64,000 nucleotides of DNA from Deltaproteobacteria bacterium ADurb.Bin207 (lineage in GTDB: Bacteria > Myxococcota_A > Polyangia > Polyangiales > Polyangiaceae). The DNA is taken from the NCBI GenBank assembly GCA_002070115.1, contig MWCO01000010.1, forward strand, positions 1-64,000, written 5' to 3'. The notes beneath the pieces were generated by a model. That model saw only the letters and a program-made list of their open reading frames with translations. It searched no databases and was not told where the DNA came from. A program made the translations under genes and the position numbers. Positions 43,591-50,949 of the stretch are shown one piece after another. The first letter of the stretch is position 1; every line of letters starts with the position of its first letter.

Positions 43591-45648
43591 ATGAATCACT
43601 CCTGGGCTCTGCGCGTATTGCTGGGTGCCTGCTTGATGTTGACGTTAGCAACCTGCCTCTTGCCTGGTTGCTGCAAATTCCTTGGCCTACGAAAGACCGA
43701 GCTTCTGTCCAAGGAACTCATGCCCGACGACCTGCACACGCAGGAAGTGGCGTATCACAACTCGATTCGTTTGCGGCTTCCTTTCGGTAGCCTCAAAAAG
43801 AAATCTCGCGTCACCATCTCTTCCGTATCCAACGCGCCTCGCCCCGACAACGCGACATCGGACCCCACCGTGTACGACTTCTCGGTGGAGGGGCACACGC
43901 AATTCGAAGAGCCCGTTGAAATTGTGCTCCCCTTCACACCTGCTTCCACGACAAAAGTCGGCTTGGGTGTCGATGCCCTCACCTACGACGAATCAGCCCG
44001 TGAATGGAAGCCCATGCCTTTTGCCGCCCACAAAGAGGGCAACTCCGTGTCCATCTACACGACTCATTTGAGTGCCTTTGCCATGTCCGCACGTGCTGGG
44101 GTTGCGTTGTCACCTACCATGAAGATTGGGTCCACCCCTTTCCCGGGGAGCAACGAGATCATGGATGCTGGGACTGTTGAGCAGATCATCCGCGGCGACT
44201 CCGCCAAGGCTGCGCAGCAGGGATGGGCAAAAAGCATGGAATTCTTTGGTATCTCATCAAACACGGGGACGTTCATCGAACAGGCGGTGTTGGAGATCCC
44301 GGGACTCAAATCCCTCAACGGAGTCGCGACCAAGCTCGGTGTGGCTTTCGGATTCCTCCAACTCGCCATTGATCTTGCCAGCGGCAACACCCAAGCCGCC
44401 AGCATCAATGCCGCGAAAAACCTTGGTTATTCCAGCGTTGCGCTCTGGGGATCCCAGGCGCTCCAAATCGGAAGCGTCGCGGTGTTCATCTTCGATTATA
44501 CCCTCACCAAGGTGGGTGAGACGGCTTGGGAGGGACGAACGGATCTGTACCAAAGGGCCTATGCGCTCTATTACAAAGAGCACCCTCGCAAGGGTTCGGA
44601 CTGGTCGAAGATCGTTCTGGGAGTCATCGACAGCGCCAAGTCGGCCGACGACGTTCACAAGGGAATCGATAGCGCGTTGCAATCTTATGTGACGGCCTTT
44701 TGGGAAAACGAATTGGTCGTTGCCGAGTATCTCGAACGCGTCAAGAAGAACGCGCAAACAGGAGGCGGAGGACTCAACGAAAAGATGAAAGCCGAAATCT
44801 CCGCGGCCTACCGCGCCGAGATCATGCATCTACTTCAAGAAACTGTTTTCCCGCGAATCCCGATCATCATCGCCAACCGCTACCGCCAGAATGTCTCCCA
44901 GCTTCTCGGAGAGTTGCGGGCTGGCCTCGATGCCTCGACAACGATCGAGGTGATCGTAAAAAGCAAGGATCGCGAGCGATCCGTGAAGAACATCGATGTG
45001 CAGATCCTCGTCAACCAGGAGCCGAACCGGTGGCACGGCGTGACGGATAAGGACGGCCGCTGGTCGATGCCATGCACCACCCTCGGCTACCTTTCCTACG
45101 GTGCGCCCAAGAAGGTGAAAGTGACAGTGCCGGCCGAAAACGGTAAGGATGCCCAGTCGGTCGAGGCAGACCTCGCCTACACGCCAGGCAAGACAACAGT
45201 CGTCGTGGAGTTGGATGGGTCGGGAGTTTTCGTCGGCACGATCGAAGATGCGCAAGTCGTGCCCGGTGGGGACTATCCAGTAAAAATCTCAGGTCCCGTG
45301 ACAATTACGGTGGCGTCCGATGGCAAAGCAACCATGGACTTCTCTTTGACGGCCAAAGAATCCGTTGGCAAAGGCACGGGAGTCACCGATATCAGCTCCT
45401 CGGGAAAACTCACCGGCTCGCTCGTCGGCGACGACTTCAAGGCTTCCGGAACGGTAACCAGCACGTATGTATCAAAATTCAAGCTTCCCCGAGGCGTAAA
45501 CCTGCCCCCGGGCACGGGCTCGGGAACGCATTCCGCAGCCATTACCGCCACGGGAAAGCGAGTCGGCAACACCATTCGGGGCACCCTGCAAGGCGCGCAA
45601 GGGAAAGCCGTCCGTTTCCAAGCTACCCAGAGCAACCAAAGCCCCTGA
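43591..45648 (+). CDS. Large lipoprotein: ZU5-like, hydrophobic helical, Ig-like and beta domains
   Basis: 685 residues. The signal peptide (VLLGACLMLTLATCLLPGCC) ends in a lipobox with a second Cys. Residues 45-165 (HNSIRLRLPFGSLKKKSRVT, FSVEGHTQFEEPVEIVLPF, HLSAFAMSA) resemble ZU5-type extracellular domains. Residues 190-340 are helical with hydrophobic stretches (LGVAFGFLQLAIDLASG, SSVALWGSQALQIGSVAVFI), unusual inside a secreted protein. An amphipathic helical part follows, then a regulatory-like beta domain (NIDVQILVNQEPNRWHGVTD) and a C-terminal beta domain (GVFVGTIEDAQVVPGGDYPV). Function unknown; the buried hydrophobic helices could insert into a membrane (inference). It is preceded by a short T-rich stretch and stands alone. 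Confidence 0.75.
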   Translation: MNHSWALRVLLGACLMLTLATCLLPGCCKFLGLRKTELLSKELMPDDLHTQEVAYHNSIRLRLPFGSLKKKSRVTISSVSNAPRPDNATSDPTVYDFSVEGHTQFEEPVEIVLPFTPASTTKVGLGVDALTYDESAREWKPMPFAAHKEGNSVSIYTTHLSAFAMSARAGVALSPTMKIGSTPFPGSNEIMDAGTVEQIIRGDSAKAAQQGWAKSMEFFGISSNTGTFIEQAVLEIPGLKSLNGVATKLGVAFGFLQLAIDLASGNTQAASINAAKNLGYSSVALWGSQALQIGSVAVFIFDYTLTKVGETAWEGRTDLYQRAYALYYKEHPRKGSDWSKIVLGVIDSAKSADDVHKGIDSALQSYVTAFWENELVVAEYLERVKKNAQTGGGGLNEKMKAEISAAYRAEIMHLLQETVFPRIPIIIANRYRQNVSQLLGELRAGLDASTTIEVIVKSKDRERSVKNIDVQILVNQEPNRWHGVTDKDGRWSMPCTTLGYLSYGAPKKVKVTVPAENGKDAQSVEADLAYTPGKTTVVVELDGSGVFVGTIEDAQVVPGGDYPVKISGPVTITVASDGKATMDFSLTAKESVGKGTGVTDISSSGKLTGSLVGDDFKASGTVTSTYVSKFKLPRGVNLPPGTGSGTHSAAITATGKRVGNTIRGTLQGAQGKAVRFQATQSNQSP

Positions 45649-45804: not shown

Positions 45805-47733
45805 TCACAGAAATGGATTGAGATGAACGTTGGCGTGCATGTTGCGCATGGCGAACGCCACACGACGGCCGAATTGGATGACGATGGCGACAAAGGCTAG
45901 AAACGTTGCGCCAGAGATTGCCCACCGCACCGCTCCTTCGGGGTTCCACAAGGTCCATAAGGCGGTGAACACGAAAGCCACGAAAGCTCCTGGCACGAGC
46001 CATTTCCAGCACAAATTCATGAGTTGATCGATACGAATACGCGGCAAGGTCCAGCGTATCCAGATGACGACGAAAACGAGGAACCAGGCCTTGCTCAAGA
46101 AGATGAACGCACCGAGGGCTTGCCACCAAAACGAATTGCCTTGGGTCATGGCATCCACGAAAGGCACTTGCCATCCCCCGAGAAATAGCGCGGAAGCGAT
46201 ACCGCTCATGACGAAGACGTTGGCCCACTCCCCGAAGAAAAAGAATACGTATCGCATGCCGGAGTATTCGGTCGAGTACCCCGCCACCAATTCGCTCTCT
46301 GCCTCGGGAAGGTCGAAAGGCGCGCGGTTTCCCTCCGCCAGGGCGGTGATGAAGTACAGGAAAAACAACAAGAACATCACGGGGTTACGGAACATATACC
46401 AATCCCAGGGAAGCCCCCCCTGCGCGCGGATGATGTCTTGCATGCGCAGACTCCCCGTCATCATCACCACACAAACGATTGCGATAGCACCGGGGATTTC
46501 ATAGCTGATGGTTTGCGCAGCGGAGCGAATTCCCCCCAGCAGCGACCACTTGTTATTCGATGCCCACCCACCGGTCATCAACCCAATCGTTACCAACGAC
46601 GTCACTGCCACGACAAAAAGAATACCGATATCCAGATCGGCGGCGATCAAGTAGTGTCCAAACGGCATCACCACGAACGTTGCGCTCACACCGACGAACA
46701 CGAGGTACGGCGCCAAACGAAACATGGGGCCATCAGCCTCCGCGGGCACGATATCTTCTTTGAGCAGCGACTTCACACCATCGGCTAGCCATTGCAAAAA
46801 TCCTTGAGGTCCTGAGCGGTTGGGGCCGATGCGTGATTGCATTCGCCCGGCCACGCGACGCTCCACCCACGTGATGATTCCTGCGGTGGGCGACATGAAA
46901 ACACCGACCGTCATCACCGCCACGAGGAGCAAAATCGCGGCTCCAACCAGGTCCGTGGGCACACCTTTCGCGATCTTCGATACTTCGATCTTTCGAAATT
47001 CGAGCTGTCCCCCCCGCTCGATGCCCACGTCTGCAAATCGGGAGGTCCCCGATGGAATGACATCTCCTTTGTCCGCCACGCTGATACCATCGAACGATTT
47101 GATAACGTCGCCAGCGAGCAGCCCAGCCTGTTTCGCCGCCAGGTTCTCCGGTGCCTCGCTCACGGCTTTGATTTTGAGGCCACCCGACGTGGGGGAGTCT
47201 TCGATCTCGATACCGAGCGCCGCGAGAACTTGCTCGCCCTTGCGTTGCCTGGACTCGATCACGGCTCGACGCATGGTGGGCGGTCGCACGTCGATGACCG
47301 CTCCGTGAACGGCCCCGGAAACACTTTTTTTCATGCCATCGGAAGCCACGCTAGGAAAGACCACGCGCACATCCCCGCGGAAGGTCGTGTGAATGGCATC
47401 TGCCCCTGCACCGGCGATTCGATCATGCAAGCCTTGCGTAAGCTGAAAATCGATGCGACTCGACGAGGAGCTGACGGCATCGACACGAATCGACACCGAT
47501 TTTTCCACGGGCCTTCCCGGTCGATATAAATCCCCTTCGAAATAGATTTCCGCAGGCTTTCCTTCCGGAAAATCCACTCCGATGATCTCGATCCGATCAC
47601 CCAGGTCCAGCTCACGTGGCGTGATGTCGAGAACGGTCAACAAGTCGAGATCATGACCGCGGGAGCATCCCCACACGGCGAGTGTGGTGAGAAACAACAG
47701 CGTGATCCACGCCGCAAATGATTTCGGTCGCAT
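45805..47733 (-). CDS. nuoH: NuoH-like NADH-quinone oxidoreductase subunit H with lipoprotein/IPT/PDZ-like N-terminus
   Basis: 642 residues, roughly twice the usual NuoH length (about 325). The C-terminal 370 residues are NuoH: VERRVAGRMQSRIGPNRSGP, QWLADGVKSLLKEDIVPAEA, ASNNKWSLLGGIRSAAQTIS, ALAEGNRAPFDLPEAESELV and AGYSTEYSGMRYVFFFFGEW, all strongly conserved in complex I quinone-site regions. The N-terminal 270 residues begin with a hydrophobic segment and Cys (TLLFLTTLAVWGC), then an IPT-like strand set (LDLGDRIEIIGVDFPEGKPA), then a PDZ-like segment (NLAAKQAGLLAGDVIKSFDG). No other nuo gene is in the window. It is probably the membrane subunit of respiratory complex I encoded away from the main operon. 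Confidence 0.9.
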   Translation of the reverse strand: MRPKSFAAWITLLFLTTLAVWGCSRGHDLDLLTVLDITPRELDLGDRIEIIGVDFPEGKPAEIYFEGDLYRPGRPVEKSVSIRVDAVSSSSSRIDFQLTQGLHDRIAGAGADAIHTTFRGDVRVVFPSVASDGMKKSVSGAVHGAVIDVRPPTMRRAVIESRQRKGEQVLAALGIEIEDSPTSGGLKIKAVSEAPENLAAKQAGLLAGDVIKSFDGISVADKGDVIPSGTSRFADVGIERGGQLEFRKIEVSKIAKGVPTDLVGAAILLLVAVMTVGVFMSPTAGIITWVERRVAGRMQSRIGPNRSGPQGFLQWLADGVKSLLKEDIVPAEADGPMFRLAPYLVFVGVSATFVVMPFGHYLIAADLDIGILFVVAVTSLVTIGLMTGGWASNNKWSLLGGIRSAAQTISYEIPGAIAIVCVVMMTGSLRMQDIIRAQGGLPWDWYMFRNPVMFLLFFLYFITALAEGNRAPFDLPEAESELVAGYSTEYSGMRYVFFFFGEWANVFVMSGIASALFLGGWQVPFVDAMTQGNSFWWQALGAFIFLSKAWFLVFVVIWIRWTLPRIRIDQLMNLCWKWLVPGAFVAFVFTALWTLWNPEGAVRWAISGATFLAFVAIVIQFGRRVAFAMRNMHANVHLNPFL

Positions 47734-47802: not shown

Positions 47803-48618
47803 TTACGGTTCAAGGCGAATCGGAACGAAATATCGCGCCTTTCGTCGCTCATCCACGCCAGTCATGACGTCCACATCAAATATCTGCCGCAAATTATCCA
47901 CCGTCATCACCTCATCCACCGGACCTTGCTCGAATACCTTTCCTTCCCGCAACATGACAACCCGGTCTGCCACCTGCGCCACCTCGTTCAGGTCATGCAT
48001 GATGGAAAGGCACGCGAGACCACGTTCATCGACTTCGTGACGAACAAGTGACAAAAGCTCGATTCGGTGGCGAATATCCAAATGAGCCCCTGCCTCGTCC
48101 AGCACAAGAACGTCGGATTGTTGCGCCAACGCGCGTGCCACGGCCACACGCTTCTGCTCACCGCCTGACAATCCCGACACTCGCCGCTCGGCCATCGCGG
48201 TAAGATGCGTCTTTCCCAATACCTCCTCCACGATTTTTCGGTCCGTTGCCGAGCCCAACAGCATGGTGCCTTGATGAGGGGCACGCCCCATCGCCACGAC
48301 CTCTCGCACGGTAAATCCAAACGCCACCCGAACATGCTGGGGAACCACGGCAATCCGTCGCGCTATCTGCCGTCTATCCAACCGGTCGATACGCTGTCCG
48401 AAGAGCCGAACCTCTCCCCTGCTCGTCCCCATCAATCCCGTAAGTACGCGAACTAATGTCGTTTTTCCTGCGCCGTTCGGGCCGATGACCGCGACCCATT
48501 CTCCCGAATCGAGAGAAACCGACAGATCTTCGATCGCGTTGGCCGCGGAGCTTGGATAGGCACAGCACACCCGACGAGCTTCGAGGGCTGGCAACTGTTG
48601 ATGCGTCATGTTACACAT
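47803..48618 (-). CDS. ABC transporter ATP-binding protein, iron-complex/B12 type
   Basis: 271 residues. Walker A VIGPNGAGKTTLVRVLTG, Q-loop VVPQHVRVAFGFTVREVVAM, signature RVSGLSGGEQKRVAVARALA, Walker B VLVLDEAGAHLDIRHRIEL and H-loop LSIMHDLNEVAQVADRVVML. The sequence is of the FecE/BtuD/HmuV class that energises uptake of siderophores, heme or cobalamin. The Walker B region reads LDEAGAHLD where most relatives have LDEPTAHLD. No permease or binding protein is encoded beside it, so the partners must lie elsewhere. A GAGGG ribosome binding site supports the first ATG; a second ATG lies three codons later. Confidence 0.9.
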   Translation of the reverse strand: MCNMTHQQLPALEARRVCCAYPSSAANAIEDLSVSLDSGEWVAVIGPNGAGKTTLVRVLTGLMGTSRGEVRLFGQRIDRLDRRQIARRIAVVPQHVRVAFGFTVREVVAMGRAPHQGTMLLGSATDRKIVEEVLGKTHLTAMAERRVSGLSGGEQKRVAVARALAQQSDVLVLDEAGAHLDIRHRIELLSLVRHEVDERGLACLSIMHDLNEVAQVADRVVMLREGKVFEQGPVDEVMTVDNLRQIFDVDVMTGVDERRKARYFVPIRLEP

Positions 48619-48694: not shown

Positions 48695-49378
48695 GTGGAC
48701 AACACGGGCGACAAGCAGGAACCGCGCCGCGTCATCAAGCGCTACTCCAACCGTAAGCTGTACGACACCCGAGACAGTCGGTATGTCACTTTGCTGCAAA
48801 TCGCGGAGATGGTGCGGCACGGCGAAGACGTTCAGATCATCGACAACACCACCAAAGAAGACAAGACCGAGGTGACCCTGGCTCTTGCGATTTCGGAAGA
48901 ACTCAAGGCCAAACCTCGTTCTGTTCCGTTGGGGACCCTTCGTAACCTCATTCAAGAGCGTGGAGAAAAAATTCTCACCTCGCTACGCGACGGCCCCATT
49001 GGCCGCTTGATTCCCGAAGGCGAATCGGAGGCAGCAGAGAAAAAAGAACACGAGGTGTCTGAGGAAAAGCTGAAAGAGCGTGAAAAAGAAAGGCAGGAGC
49101 GCACTGGGCTCGCCGAATTGATGGCCAGTTCTCGACACACCCTCGACCAATGGCAACATGCCATCGACGAGCGAATTCGCGCAGTTTTGCCTAGTTTCTC
49201 GCTGTTTTTGGATATCCAGGCGGAAATGCGTCGTTTGACACAACGCGTCCAATTCCTCGAAGAGCGCTTCGGGCAGAAGCAGCGGGCCAGTGAGGGGGGC
49301 AAGGAACCTGCGGAGTCCACCATGGAATCCGGAAAAATCGCACCTCCGCCTGGACAAGATGCCACCCCGAAGGAATAA
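48695..49378 (+). CDS. phaR: PhaR-type polyhydroxyalkanoate regulator
   Basis: 227 residues, GTG start with AGGAAGGAG upstream. The N-terminal DNA-binding domain is nearly canonical: RVIKRYSNRKLYDTRDSRYV, TLLQIAEMVRHGEDVQIIDN, TTKEDKTEVTLALAI. A charged coiled coil follows (HEVSEEKLKEREKERQERTG), then a helical repeat (LAELMASSRHTLDQWQHAI) and a Pro-rich tail. PhaR represses phasin and PHB-synthesis genes and is released by binding polymer granules. No phaC, phaB or phasin gene is present nearby, so its targets are elsewhere; in Myxococcota this domain may have a wider role. It is followed 48 bases later by an ECF sigma gene. Confidence 0.88.
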   Translation: MDNTGDKQEPRRVIKRYSNRKLYDTRDSRYVTLLQIAEMVRHGEDVQIIDNTTKEDKTEVTLALAISEELKAKPRSVPLGTLRNLIQERGEKILTSLRDGPIGRLIPEGESEAAEKKEHEVSEEKLKEREKERQERTGLAELMASSRHTLDQWQHAIDERIRAVLPSFSLFLDIQAEMRRLTQRVQFLEERFGQKQRASEGGKEPAESTMESGKIAPPPGQDATPKE

Positions 49379-49426
49379 CTCACGGGACCTATCGGTTGGG
49401 GCGATGGAACACCCAACGGAATCCCA

Positions 49427-50089
49427 ATGTCATTCTTTCCTTTCCTAAACCGAAGCCGCGTCAGGCAAGATACTTTCGAGGACGACGTTCTTTCCCATGT
49501 CGACTCGCTTTTCGCCACGGCGCTGCGAATGACCAGGAGCCAGGCGGACGCCGAGGACTTGGTGCAAGACACTTTGGTCAAAGCAGTCCGAGGGCGCGCG
49601 TTATTTGAAGATGGCACGAACCTCAAGGCGTGGCTTTTCAAAATCCTCACCAATACTTTCATCAATCGGTATCGACGCGGCAGTTTGGAGCGTGAGATCA
49701 TTAGTGGTGCAGATGCGCGCCCTCTGTCCGACGGTTGGATGAGCGCGGCTTCGATGCGTCAGATGTGCGACGCCGAATCTCAGGCTTTTCGGCCCATCAT
49801 CGAGAAAGAAGTCAACAAAGCCTTGGAACAATTGCCCGACGAATTCCGAATCCCCGTGCTACTTTCGGACGTCGAAGACTTTTCCTATCGGGAAATCTCA
49901 GAAATTATGGGTTGTCCGATTGGTACGGTGATGTCACGCCTGTATCGAGGCCGTCGGCTGCTTCAAATCGCGTTACATGACCACGCTTTGGCAATGGGAC
50001 TCGTGAAAGGAGAGGCGGTCCGGGAGGATGAATCCAACATGGTGAATCTCGAGTCTTATCGAACTCGCAAACAGGGGGTGGGCGGATGA
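49427..50089 (+). CDS. ECF-type RNA polymerase sigma factor
   Basis: 220 residues. Region 2: VDSLFATALRMTRSQADAED, LVQDTLVKAVRGRALF, LKAWLFKILTNTFINRYRRG. Region 4: NKALEQLPDEFRIPVLLSDV, EDFSYREISEIMGCPIGTVM and SRLYRGRRLLQIAL. It belongs near the SigR/RpoE-like groups paired with zinc anti-sigma factors, and indeed overlaps such a gene by 4 bases (ATGA at 50086-50089). This suggests control of an oxidative, thiol or envelope stress regulon (family knowledge). The coding sequence continues about 25 residues past region 4 in a charged tail. Confidence 0.92.
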   Translation: MSFFPFLNRSRVRQDTFEDDVLSHVDSLFATALRMTRSQADAEDLVQDTLVKAVRGRALFEDGTNLKAWLFKILTNTFINRYRRGSLEREIISGADARPLSDGWMSAASMRQMCDAESQAFRPIIEKEVNKALEQLPDEFRIPVLLSDVEDFSYREISEIMGCPIGTVMSRLYRGRRLLQIALHDHALAMGLVKGEAVREDESNMVNLESYRTRKQGVGG

Positions 50090-50949
50090 CGCACGTGACG
50101 TGTCGTGATCTGGCGCGCAGCCTGAGTGCGTTCGTGGACGGCGAACTCGATCCGACGTTGGCGCTGGAGTTGCAACTTCATATCGATGGATGTGAAGCCT
50201 GCGAAGCCCGTGTGAAGTTTGCGCGAGCAAGCCGCACGAGCGTGCGAAATGCCGTCAAGTCGACCAAGGCTTCGGACTCTTTTCGGTTACGCGTCGCCAC
50301 GACAGTTGCGCAGGCCGCCGAAGCCGAAAAGCACGGCGATATCATGGTGAGCAGCGGTCTGCTTTCGTGGAAAATCGCGGGTCCTCTCGCCGCGGCGGCT
50401 GCATTCGTGTTGGTTTGGGCCTCCGCTTCCAAACTCCAAGAACGAAACCTCGACAAAACAACATCATCCTCTCCGTCGACCAGCCAAGCATCCATGATCC
50501 CCGTGGACACGTTGGTGGACACGTTGGTGGACCAGCACGCCAATCCCTTACCGCCGGAGACCAGCAGTCCTTCCGAAATCGCGCAATTCGACCGTTTCAT
50601 CGGCGTTCCTATCCGCACGGTTCCGGAACGTGGTTTTCAAGGTCAAGGACACTTGCTCGGCGCGCGAATGGTCCCGCTGCAAGAACAACGCGCCGCCATG
50701 TTTCAATATGTCATGGGTAATGGCCGACGCATCAGTATGTACATCTACAATCCCCAAAAAATCCGCCTCAGCAATAGCCCCATTCTTCGTGAAATTCCCG
50801 TCCGTAACAACGCAGGCCCCGTGTATGTCGGTTGTGTTCGCGGATACTCCGTAGCGGTTACGGACCGACGCGGTGTGGGTTATGCGATGGCGAGCGACTT
50901 GGACGAAAGTGAGAGTTCCAGGCTTTTGTTGGCTGTTGGCGACCATTGA
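50086..50949 (+). CDS. Zinc-finger anti-sigma factor with periplasmic domain
   Basis: 287 residues. The ZAS motif is present: CRDLARSLSAFVDGELD, then His32, Cys36 and Cys39 in QLHIDGCEACEARV. One membrane span (WKIAGPLAAAAAFVLVWASA) lies near residues 95-112. The periplasmic part starts with a Ser/Thr linker containing a short tandem repeat (VDTLVDTLVD), then a compact domain (DRFIGVPIRTVPERGFQGQG, AAMFQYVMGNGRRISMYIYN, VGCVRGYSVAVTDRRGVGYA) resembling anti-sigma periplasmic domains of the ChrR/RsiW-like kind. It sequesters the upstream sigma factor and releases it under stress (inference from overlap and motif). Confidence 0.85.
   Translation: MTHVTCRDLARSLSAFVDGELDPTLALELQLHIDGCEACEARVKFARASRTSVRNAVKSTKASDSFRLRVATTVAQAAEAEKHGDIMVSSGLLSWKIAGPLAAAAAFVLVWASASKLQERNLDKTTSSSPSTSQASMIPVDTLVDTLVDQHANPLPPETSSPSEIAQFDRFIGVPIRTVPERGFQGQGHLLGARMVPLQEQRAAMFQYVMGNGRRISMYIYNPQKIRLSNSPILREIPVRNNAGPVYVGCVRGYSVAVTDRRGVGYAMASDLDESESSRLLLAVGDH
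50503..50532 (+). repeat. In-frame 12-bp tandem repeat
   Basis: Two and a half copies of GTGGACACGTTG (50503-50514, 50515-50526, partial 50527-50532) inside the anti-sigma gene encode VDTLVDTLVD in the periplasmic linker. The unit keeps the reading frame, so slippage would change linker length without breaking the protein. Confidence 0.8.

Follow-up and report, generated by a model that had tools for sequence, protein, structure and literature searches.

Core subunits of complex I are among the most conserved membrane proteins. In structures of NuoH and ND1, the loop between transmembrane helices 1 and 2 (TM1 and TM2), which contributes to the quinone site, faces the cytoplasm. Beside the Mrp antiporter, an Ehr-type relative of complex I reuses its membrane subunits without the NADH module; we know of no bacterial complex I in which periplasmic modules are fused to the proton-pumping arm. 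The Mrp antiporter is itself a relative of complex I (PMC7419157), and an 11-subunit complex I-like enzyme without NuoEFG has been described in Desulfitobacterium, with ferredoxin proposed as the electron donor (PMC11238625). Here we analyze a gene that departs from this picture, in a stretch of 64,000 nucleotides (hereafter, the window; positions 1 to 64,000 of contig MWCO01000010.1, assembly GCA_002070115.1) from the Polyangiaceae genome Deltaproteobacteria bacterium ADurb.Bin207. In its single reading frame, in which the open reading frame (ORF) check revealed no problems, a NuoH protein is preceded by a lipoprotein-like N-terminal module. The parts of the gene are as follows.

45805..47733, minus strand: fused lipoprotein-IPT-PDZ-NuoH gene, 642 amino acids plus stop, ATG start
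47665..47733, minus strand: residues 1-22 as lipoprotein signal peptide, followed by the lipobox Cys23 (..AVWGC), from cysteine conservation and a helix over residues 3-22 in the model
47287..47637, minus strand: IPT/TIG-like beta-sandwich (residues ~33-149), from the predicted fold
46984..47217, minus strand: PDZ domain (residues ~173-250), from profiles and the predicted fold
45937..46950, minus strand: intact NuoH core (residues ~262-599), with ERR, RIGPNR, KEDI, GWASNNK, PEAESELVAG and TEYSG motifs
45808..45933, minus strand: C-terminal extension (residues 601-642), one more predicted helix ending in ..HLNPFL, from the model and comparison

By every sequence test applied, the C-terminal part of the protein is NuoH, as an earlier note made from the letters of this DNA had asserted. 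The Pfam family NADHdh matches residues 273-591 (E = 1 × 10−114, 382.9 bits, model positions 4-298 of 298), NuoH equivalog models also match, 65 of the 74 canonical invariant NuoH columns are kept, and all six quinone-site and E-channel motifs are present. The NuoH part of the full-length structural model superimposes on the solved chloroplast NdhA with Z = 28; the mean predicted local distance difference test (pLDDT) score of this model is 76.7, so that it is less certain than the AlphaFold model of the N-terminal part (86.8). The C-terminal extension is found also in unfused relatives of the same NuoH lineage. Most likely, the protein is part of a predicted quinone-reducing, proton-pumping complex. 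The extra N-terminal part that the same note described is indeed there, but is about 260 residues long rather than 270. An internal start near residue 262 was rejected as the true start of the gene, given that no start codon is conserved there and that the protein sequence of the N-terminal part is conserved between genomes, and the fusion thus withstands the objection that the note itself had raised. Nor are there any nuo genes beside the fusion, in line with the reported detachment from a nuo operon.

The signal-like segment of the N-terminal part ends in Cys23, and this lipobox cysteine is retained in 20 of 20 orthologues, very divergent ones included, with mostly Gly or Ala as the preceding residue; Cys23 is predicted to be lipidated. 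The segment described as PDZ-like proved to be a true PDZ domain. In the window protein alone, the match is below threshold (Pfam E = 4 × 10−4 to 2 × 10−3), but Pfam PDZ families are matched by all 21 of 21 close orthologues (best E = 6 × 10−10), a profile search with this part retrieves PDZ chains of DegP (E = 1 × 10−12), and the predicted fold aligns with the PDZ domain of DegS with Z = 10.0 (2.3 Å over 79 residues). The evidence is more equivocal for residues 33-149, predicted to form a beta-sandwich that resembles the IPT/TIG domain of NF-kB p65 (Z = 7.3, below the decisive level; 3.0 Å over 97 residues). The predicted fold makes the IPT assignment of the earlier note plausible, whereas the sequence lends it no support, the Pfam search of the window protein having given no match in this part; this similarity is suggestive, and allows no stronger label than IPT-like. 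The TM1-TM2 loop corresponds, in the window protein, to the Arg-rich ERRVAGRMQSRIGPNR segment, and because this loop is cytoplasmic in the established NuoH/ND1 structures, the N-terminus of the fusion should lie outside the membrane. Such an orientation agrees with the export signal and would place the module on the periplasmic face, between the lipid anchor and TM1.

The fusion is real and old. A search of a genome collection identified 20 fused loci in all, so that, as the earlier note had surmised, this is a lineage trait rather than a peculiarity of one genome, and the fusion is widespread in 30 relatives. The same fusion is present in Sorangium cellulosum and Minicystis rosea, whose genomes are complete; intact full-length versions are encoded by S. 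cellulosum So ce26, So0157-2, So ceGT47 and So0008-312, by M. rosea DSM 24000, and by metagenome-assembled genomes (MAGs) labelled Byssovorax and Polyangiaceae. Among 379 Myxococcota genomes, a profile of the N-terminal module found full-length matches in the order to which the window belongs, along with weak ones in a few of the class's families; in the remaining genomes, only the generic PDZ part was matched. The closest NuoH proteins outside this group are ordinary, mostly ~370-430 amino acids long, and in the operons read are encoded after nuoD in the order nuoABCDHIJKLMN. Apparent fusions outside Myxococcota (matches to residues 82-640 or 192-640) were rejected as tblastn run-ins to the upstream nuoD, the true proteins being ~395-residue NuoH, and N-terminal NuoH extensions in L167, L186, L197 and L201 were likewise dismissed as ORF-calling artefacts over upstream nuoD. 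In a deltaproteobacterial MAG (L184:5332-7317, plus strand), a signal peptide and an IPT-like domain, without PDZ, are fused to NuoH within a nuoABCDHIJKL operon. The N-terminal part of this protein matches only the IPT-like part of the fusion family in the 379 genomes, and because its NuoH falls outside the group of fusions in the NuoH tree, it may represent an independent or older IPT fusion.

The fusions fall into two classes by the state of the NuoH core. Intact members score 521-569 bits against the NuoH profile, keep all checked motifs (except for L007, where one differs) and retain 63-67 of the 74 invariant columns, compared with at most 279 bits, at most one motif and 9-36 columns for the degenerate members. 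Conservation of the lipobox and of the IPT-like and PDZ parts extends to both classes, and many intact and degenerate fusions share flanking genes, that is, sit at the same locus. Identity to the window genome is 39-45% (intact) vs. 35-40% (degenerate) in the module, and 71-76% vs. 27-44% in the NuoH core. Because the ratio of nonsynonymous to synonymous substitution rates (dN/dS) is 0.04-0.33 in both halves of the degenerate genes, these evolve under purifying selection, and together with the open frames this rules out pseudogenes. A branch with 100/100 support separates all fused NuoH cores, intact or degenerate, from unfused NuoH, which rejects the idea that the lipoprotein acquired a foreign NuoH domain by a recent swap. 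In the tree of the N-terminal module, the degenerate genus of G014, to which G353, G381 and G383 are alike, is nested within the intact clade with 100/98 support, although long branches leave the deeper order unsure. This nesting suggests that degeneration probably occurred more than once, and disfavours a single origin of intact from degenerate forms.

To which enzyme does the intact subunit belong? The genome that contains the window has only two NuoH genes. The other one, on contig C8 (G000:C8), is the second nuoH that the earlier note had proposed to look for, but it serves a different complex I from that of the fusion. This complex I no. 1 comprises A, B, C, D, G, H and I on C8 and, judged by position and sequence, E, F, J, K, L, M and N on C14 (0.6-9.4 kb). 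A further set (set B, or type-B) consists of A, B, C and D on C65 and I, J, K, L, M and N on C14 (75.9-84.2 kb). Subunit by subunit, set B is a better match than set A to the nuoABCD-H-IJKL genes of L184, with 50-68% identity for A, B, C, D, I, J and K and 45% for L. In the operons of relatives, H lies between D and I, and set B of the window genome is broken around H. With only two nuoH genes in the genome and set B broken around H, the fusion most probably supplies the H subunit of a second complex I of Polyangiaceae, one with 11 subunits. No NuoE, F or G genes adjoin the type-B genes; E and F on C14 sit with J-N of complex I no. 1, and four more NuoG-like matches elsewhere are unplaced.

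The distribution of NuoD is consistent with this assignment. Type-B NuoD forms a distinct clade (100/99 support) that includes only genomes with intact fusions and has a branching order similar to that of the fusion. It was found in 8 of the 9 intact genomes and in none of the 48 degenerate genomes in which the fusion was read (Fisher p = 5 × 10−9, relatedness ignored; the partial NuoD of G362 is unclassified, and the long-branched NuoD of G175 falls outside the type-B clade). The ninth intact genome, G329, encodes a type-B NuoL (61% identity), so that its NuoD probably falls in an assembly gap. A third NuoD type, carried by some degenerate genomes, forms a separate lineage in G013, G024, G025, G125, G137, G370, G081 and G290, the first three of which also encode an ordinary NuoH of 325-334 residues. 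Both complex I sets of the window genome are scattered over contigs (G000:C8, C14, C65 and C10) rather than organized in single operons. The NuoH of complex I no. 1 (L004:8604-10457, minus strand, the gene on G000:C8) has 617 amino acids; a hydrophobic insertion of ~155 residues directly follows RIGPNRA within the quinone-site loop between TM1 and TM2. Many relatives, though neither L020 nor L030, have frames of about this length.

Type-B NuoL and NuoM are decorated as well. The NuoL loop between TM6 and TM7, which should be periplasmic judging by the usual topology, spans 186-333 residues in the nine intact genomes vs. 57-72 in most unfused relatives and 117 in L184, and in G016 it contains a PEGA match above the Pfam cut-off. 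In type-B NuoM, the core is preceded by an exported extension with a signal peptide and an Ig-like domain that weakly matches HYDIN/CARDB-like families; it is present in 8 genomes, all of those whose start could be read. In most controls, the NuoM core begins within ten residues of the start, the exceptions (L184 and L180) looking like ORF-start artefacts. Length comparison revealed no apparent decoration of J, K, N or the hydrophilic subunits.

Degenerate counterparts of these decorated NuoL and NuoM were found in seven genomes, in five of which H, L and M lie on one contig. In G010, G013, G125 and G299, degenerate H is directly followed by degenerate L and M; in G006, these are ~13 kb away; and in G353 and G014, a single frame of ~1310 amino acids joins L and M, at a site in the genome away from H. 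The corresponding stretches are listed below.

L240, L057, L247, L251, L242, L243, L245: stretches with degenerate decorated NuoL-NuoM, with or near degenerate H

Degenerate NuoM falls within the NuoM clade and keeps the Ig-like domain, and degenerate NuoL keeps the loop insert. In the alignment, however, NuoM Glu140 is replaced by Q, A or L, and Lys236 by V, A, R or T. Judging by the alignment, Glu140 appears to be the equivalent of Glu144 of E. coli NuoM, a conserved residue whose substitution impairs function (PMC3046159). Identity of the NuoL insert to the window genome is 33% in intact vs. 31-35% in degenerate members, compared with 59-67% vs. 30-34% for the NuoL core, and dN/dS of degenerate L and M is 0.23-0.34. 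No other type-B subunits, and no NuoB/D-like protein, were found with the degenerate trio in the stretches read, the genome-wide search having covered NuoD and NuoL only. Tentatively, and with somewhat less than even confidence, we suggest that in Polyangiales, H, L and M of an 11-subunit complex I gained extracytoplasmic domains for an envelope assembly, that the redox arm was then lost repeatedly, and that the H-L-M trio persisted as a redox-inert, non-pumping set organized around periplasmic lipoprotein-PDZ, PEGA and Ig modules. The strongly degenerate G112 shows no NuoL other than that of the complex I no. 1 type, and such lineages may have lost L and M too.

For the window gene, the interpretation that we favour, with reasonable though far from complete confidence, is that the protein is the H subunit of the second 11-subunit complex I and, with the modules on H, L and M, contributes to a periplasmic scaffold or docking platform with a PDZ-bound envelope partner. 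The N-terminus would be exported as a lipoprotein carrying the IPT-like and PDZ domains; the chain would then enter the membrane as TM1 of NuoH, so that the module would be held in the periplasm at the heel of the membrane arm. There, together with the PEGA-like loop of NuoL and the Ig-like domain of NuoM, it would probably form one surface along the membrane arm, likely a scaffold or docking platform on the type-B complex I, and the PDZ groove would bind an envelope partner by its C-terminus or by one of its loops. In the window organism, type-B complex I is most likely a working enzyme. The periplasmic location and lipidation of the module, physical assembly of the modules, the scaffold or docking role and ligand binding by the PDZ domain are inferred. 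A structural or docking role in the envelope is suggested by the persistence of the periplasmic domains without catalysis, as though the add-ons made up an assembly in the periplasm that is of use even without respiration. Since the module is kept in most relatives although their NuoH cores have degenerated, its role would extend beyond regulating complex I. Several observations weigh against this interpretation. The degenerate trio occurs in just seven genomes, and because some strongly degenerate genomes, such as G112, seem to lack degenerate NuoL, H can apparently persist alone; in the window's own genome, sequence matches give little backing to the IPT and PEGA/Ig assignments; and in intact members, change is more rapid in the N-terminal module than in the NuoH core, as would be expected of an appendage under little constraint.

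The same observations can be read in other ways. A PDZ module that is closest to DegS and DegP in fold and to DegP by profile, and is tethered beside TM1 of NuoH, could be a regulatory or quality-control sensor of complex I that, in the manner of HtrA/DegS, binds the exposed C-termini of proteins in the periplasm or the membrane and tunes the assembly or activity of the pumping arm. We consider this unlikely, even if it is the strongest competitor: there is no protease domain, and the module is kept and selected in dozens of genomes in which the NuoH core lacks the signature residues and type-B NuoD is missing, so that regulation of complex I cannot be its sole role. Among the membrane subunits, only H has been separated from the rest on its own, and its signal peptide suits insertion with the N-terminus outside. 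Both points would fit a module serving only the export, insertion or assembly of a NuoH now encoded off-operon, possibly with later clipping. Unfused NuoH, however, inserts without any such module, NuoM is decorated although still in the operon, and the module persists next to degenerate NuoH cores, which makes this account improbable.

Constructive neutral drift, whereby the fused domains are tolerated without a selected function, accords with the finding that between intact relatives the identity of the module is below that of the NuoH core. It is hard to reconcile with a module dN/dS of 0.04-0.5, the invariant cysteine and motif residues, and order-wide retention after the loss of type-B NuoD, and we regard it as very improbable. 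Finally, the draft genome from which the window comes has an estimated contamination of 4.4%, so misassembly, contamination or a wrong start codon could in principle have joined two genes. The chance of this is negligible because the complete Sorangium and Minicystis genomes contradict a chance ORF or an assembly or contamination artefact, and the ~20 loci, none with a conserved internal start, do so too.

The surroundings of the gene include several features, some of them conserved.

47803..48618, minus strand: ABC transporter ATPase, 70 bp upstream of the fusion on the same strand, also its neighbour in some relatives
48695..50949, plus strand: conserved flanking block of a 227-residue protein of cluster 1 and sigma-factor-like and anti-sigma-like proteins; clusters 1, 2 and 3 are common to 7-8 loci

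On the other side, 43591-45648 (plus strand) encodes a 685-residue lipoprotein-like protein without a Pfam match. A scan for promoters and terminators gave signals at chance level only, and a plasmid search gave no useful match.

Literature searches that paired NuoH with PDZ or PEGA with NADH-quinone oxidoreductase, or that addressed nuo in Sorangium, returned nothing relevant, and no account of the fusion came to light, most subscription journals being outside their reach. Presumably, the fusion genes are labelled plain NuoH in databases. By the domains predicted from its sequence, the fusion is a new variant of complex I through its modules: three subunits are decorated here, and the add-ons outlive the catalytic core. 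If the degenerate H, L and M indeed form a complex, it would be a categorically new one, derived from complex I. The family offers a natural experiment in which the decoration, uncoupling and reuse of the components of an energy machine can be followed, in organisms among which Sorangium and Minicystis are culturable.

Compared with known systems, the fusion shares signature motifs and fold with NuoH, Nqo8, ND1 and NdhA, the nearest solved structures being chloroplast and cyanobacterial NdhA. These proteins lack the exported lipoprotein-IPT-PDZ module of ~260 residues ahead of TM1, a module absent from standard complex I as the earlier note maintained, and the fusion gene, unlike theirs, lies outside any nuo operon. 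With the PDZ domains of HtrA, DegP, DegS and site-2 proteases, it has in common the fold and the carboxylate-loop pattern, but it has no protease domain, and its PDZ domain is joined to a respiratory subunit. The 11-subunit enzymes, that is, those of Desulfitobacterium (PMC11238625) and cyanobacterial NDH-1, have the same gene set, A-D and H-N, as type-B complex I, and the unfused relatives follow the order nuoABCDHIJKLMN; in type-B, by contrast, the operon is split around H, and H, L and M are decorated. Like the Mrp antiporter (PMC7419157) and the Ehr-type relatives, the degenerate H-L-M set reuses complex I-type membrane subunits without the NADH module, but it lacks the pump residues (NuoM E140 and K236) and appears to be built around periplasmic domains.
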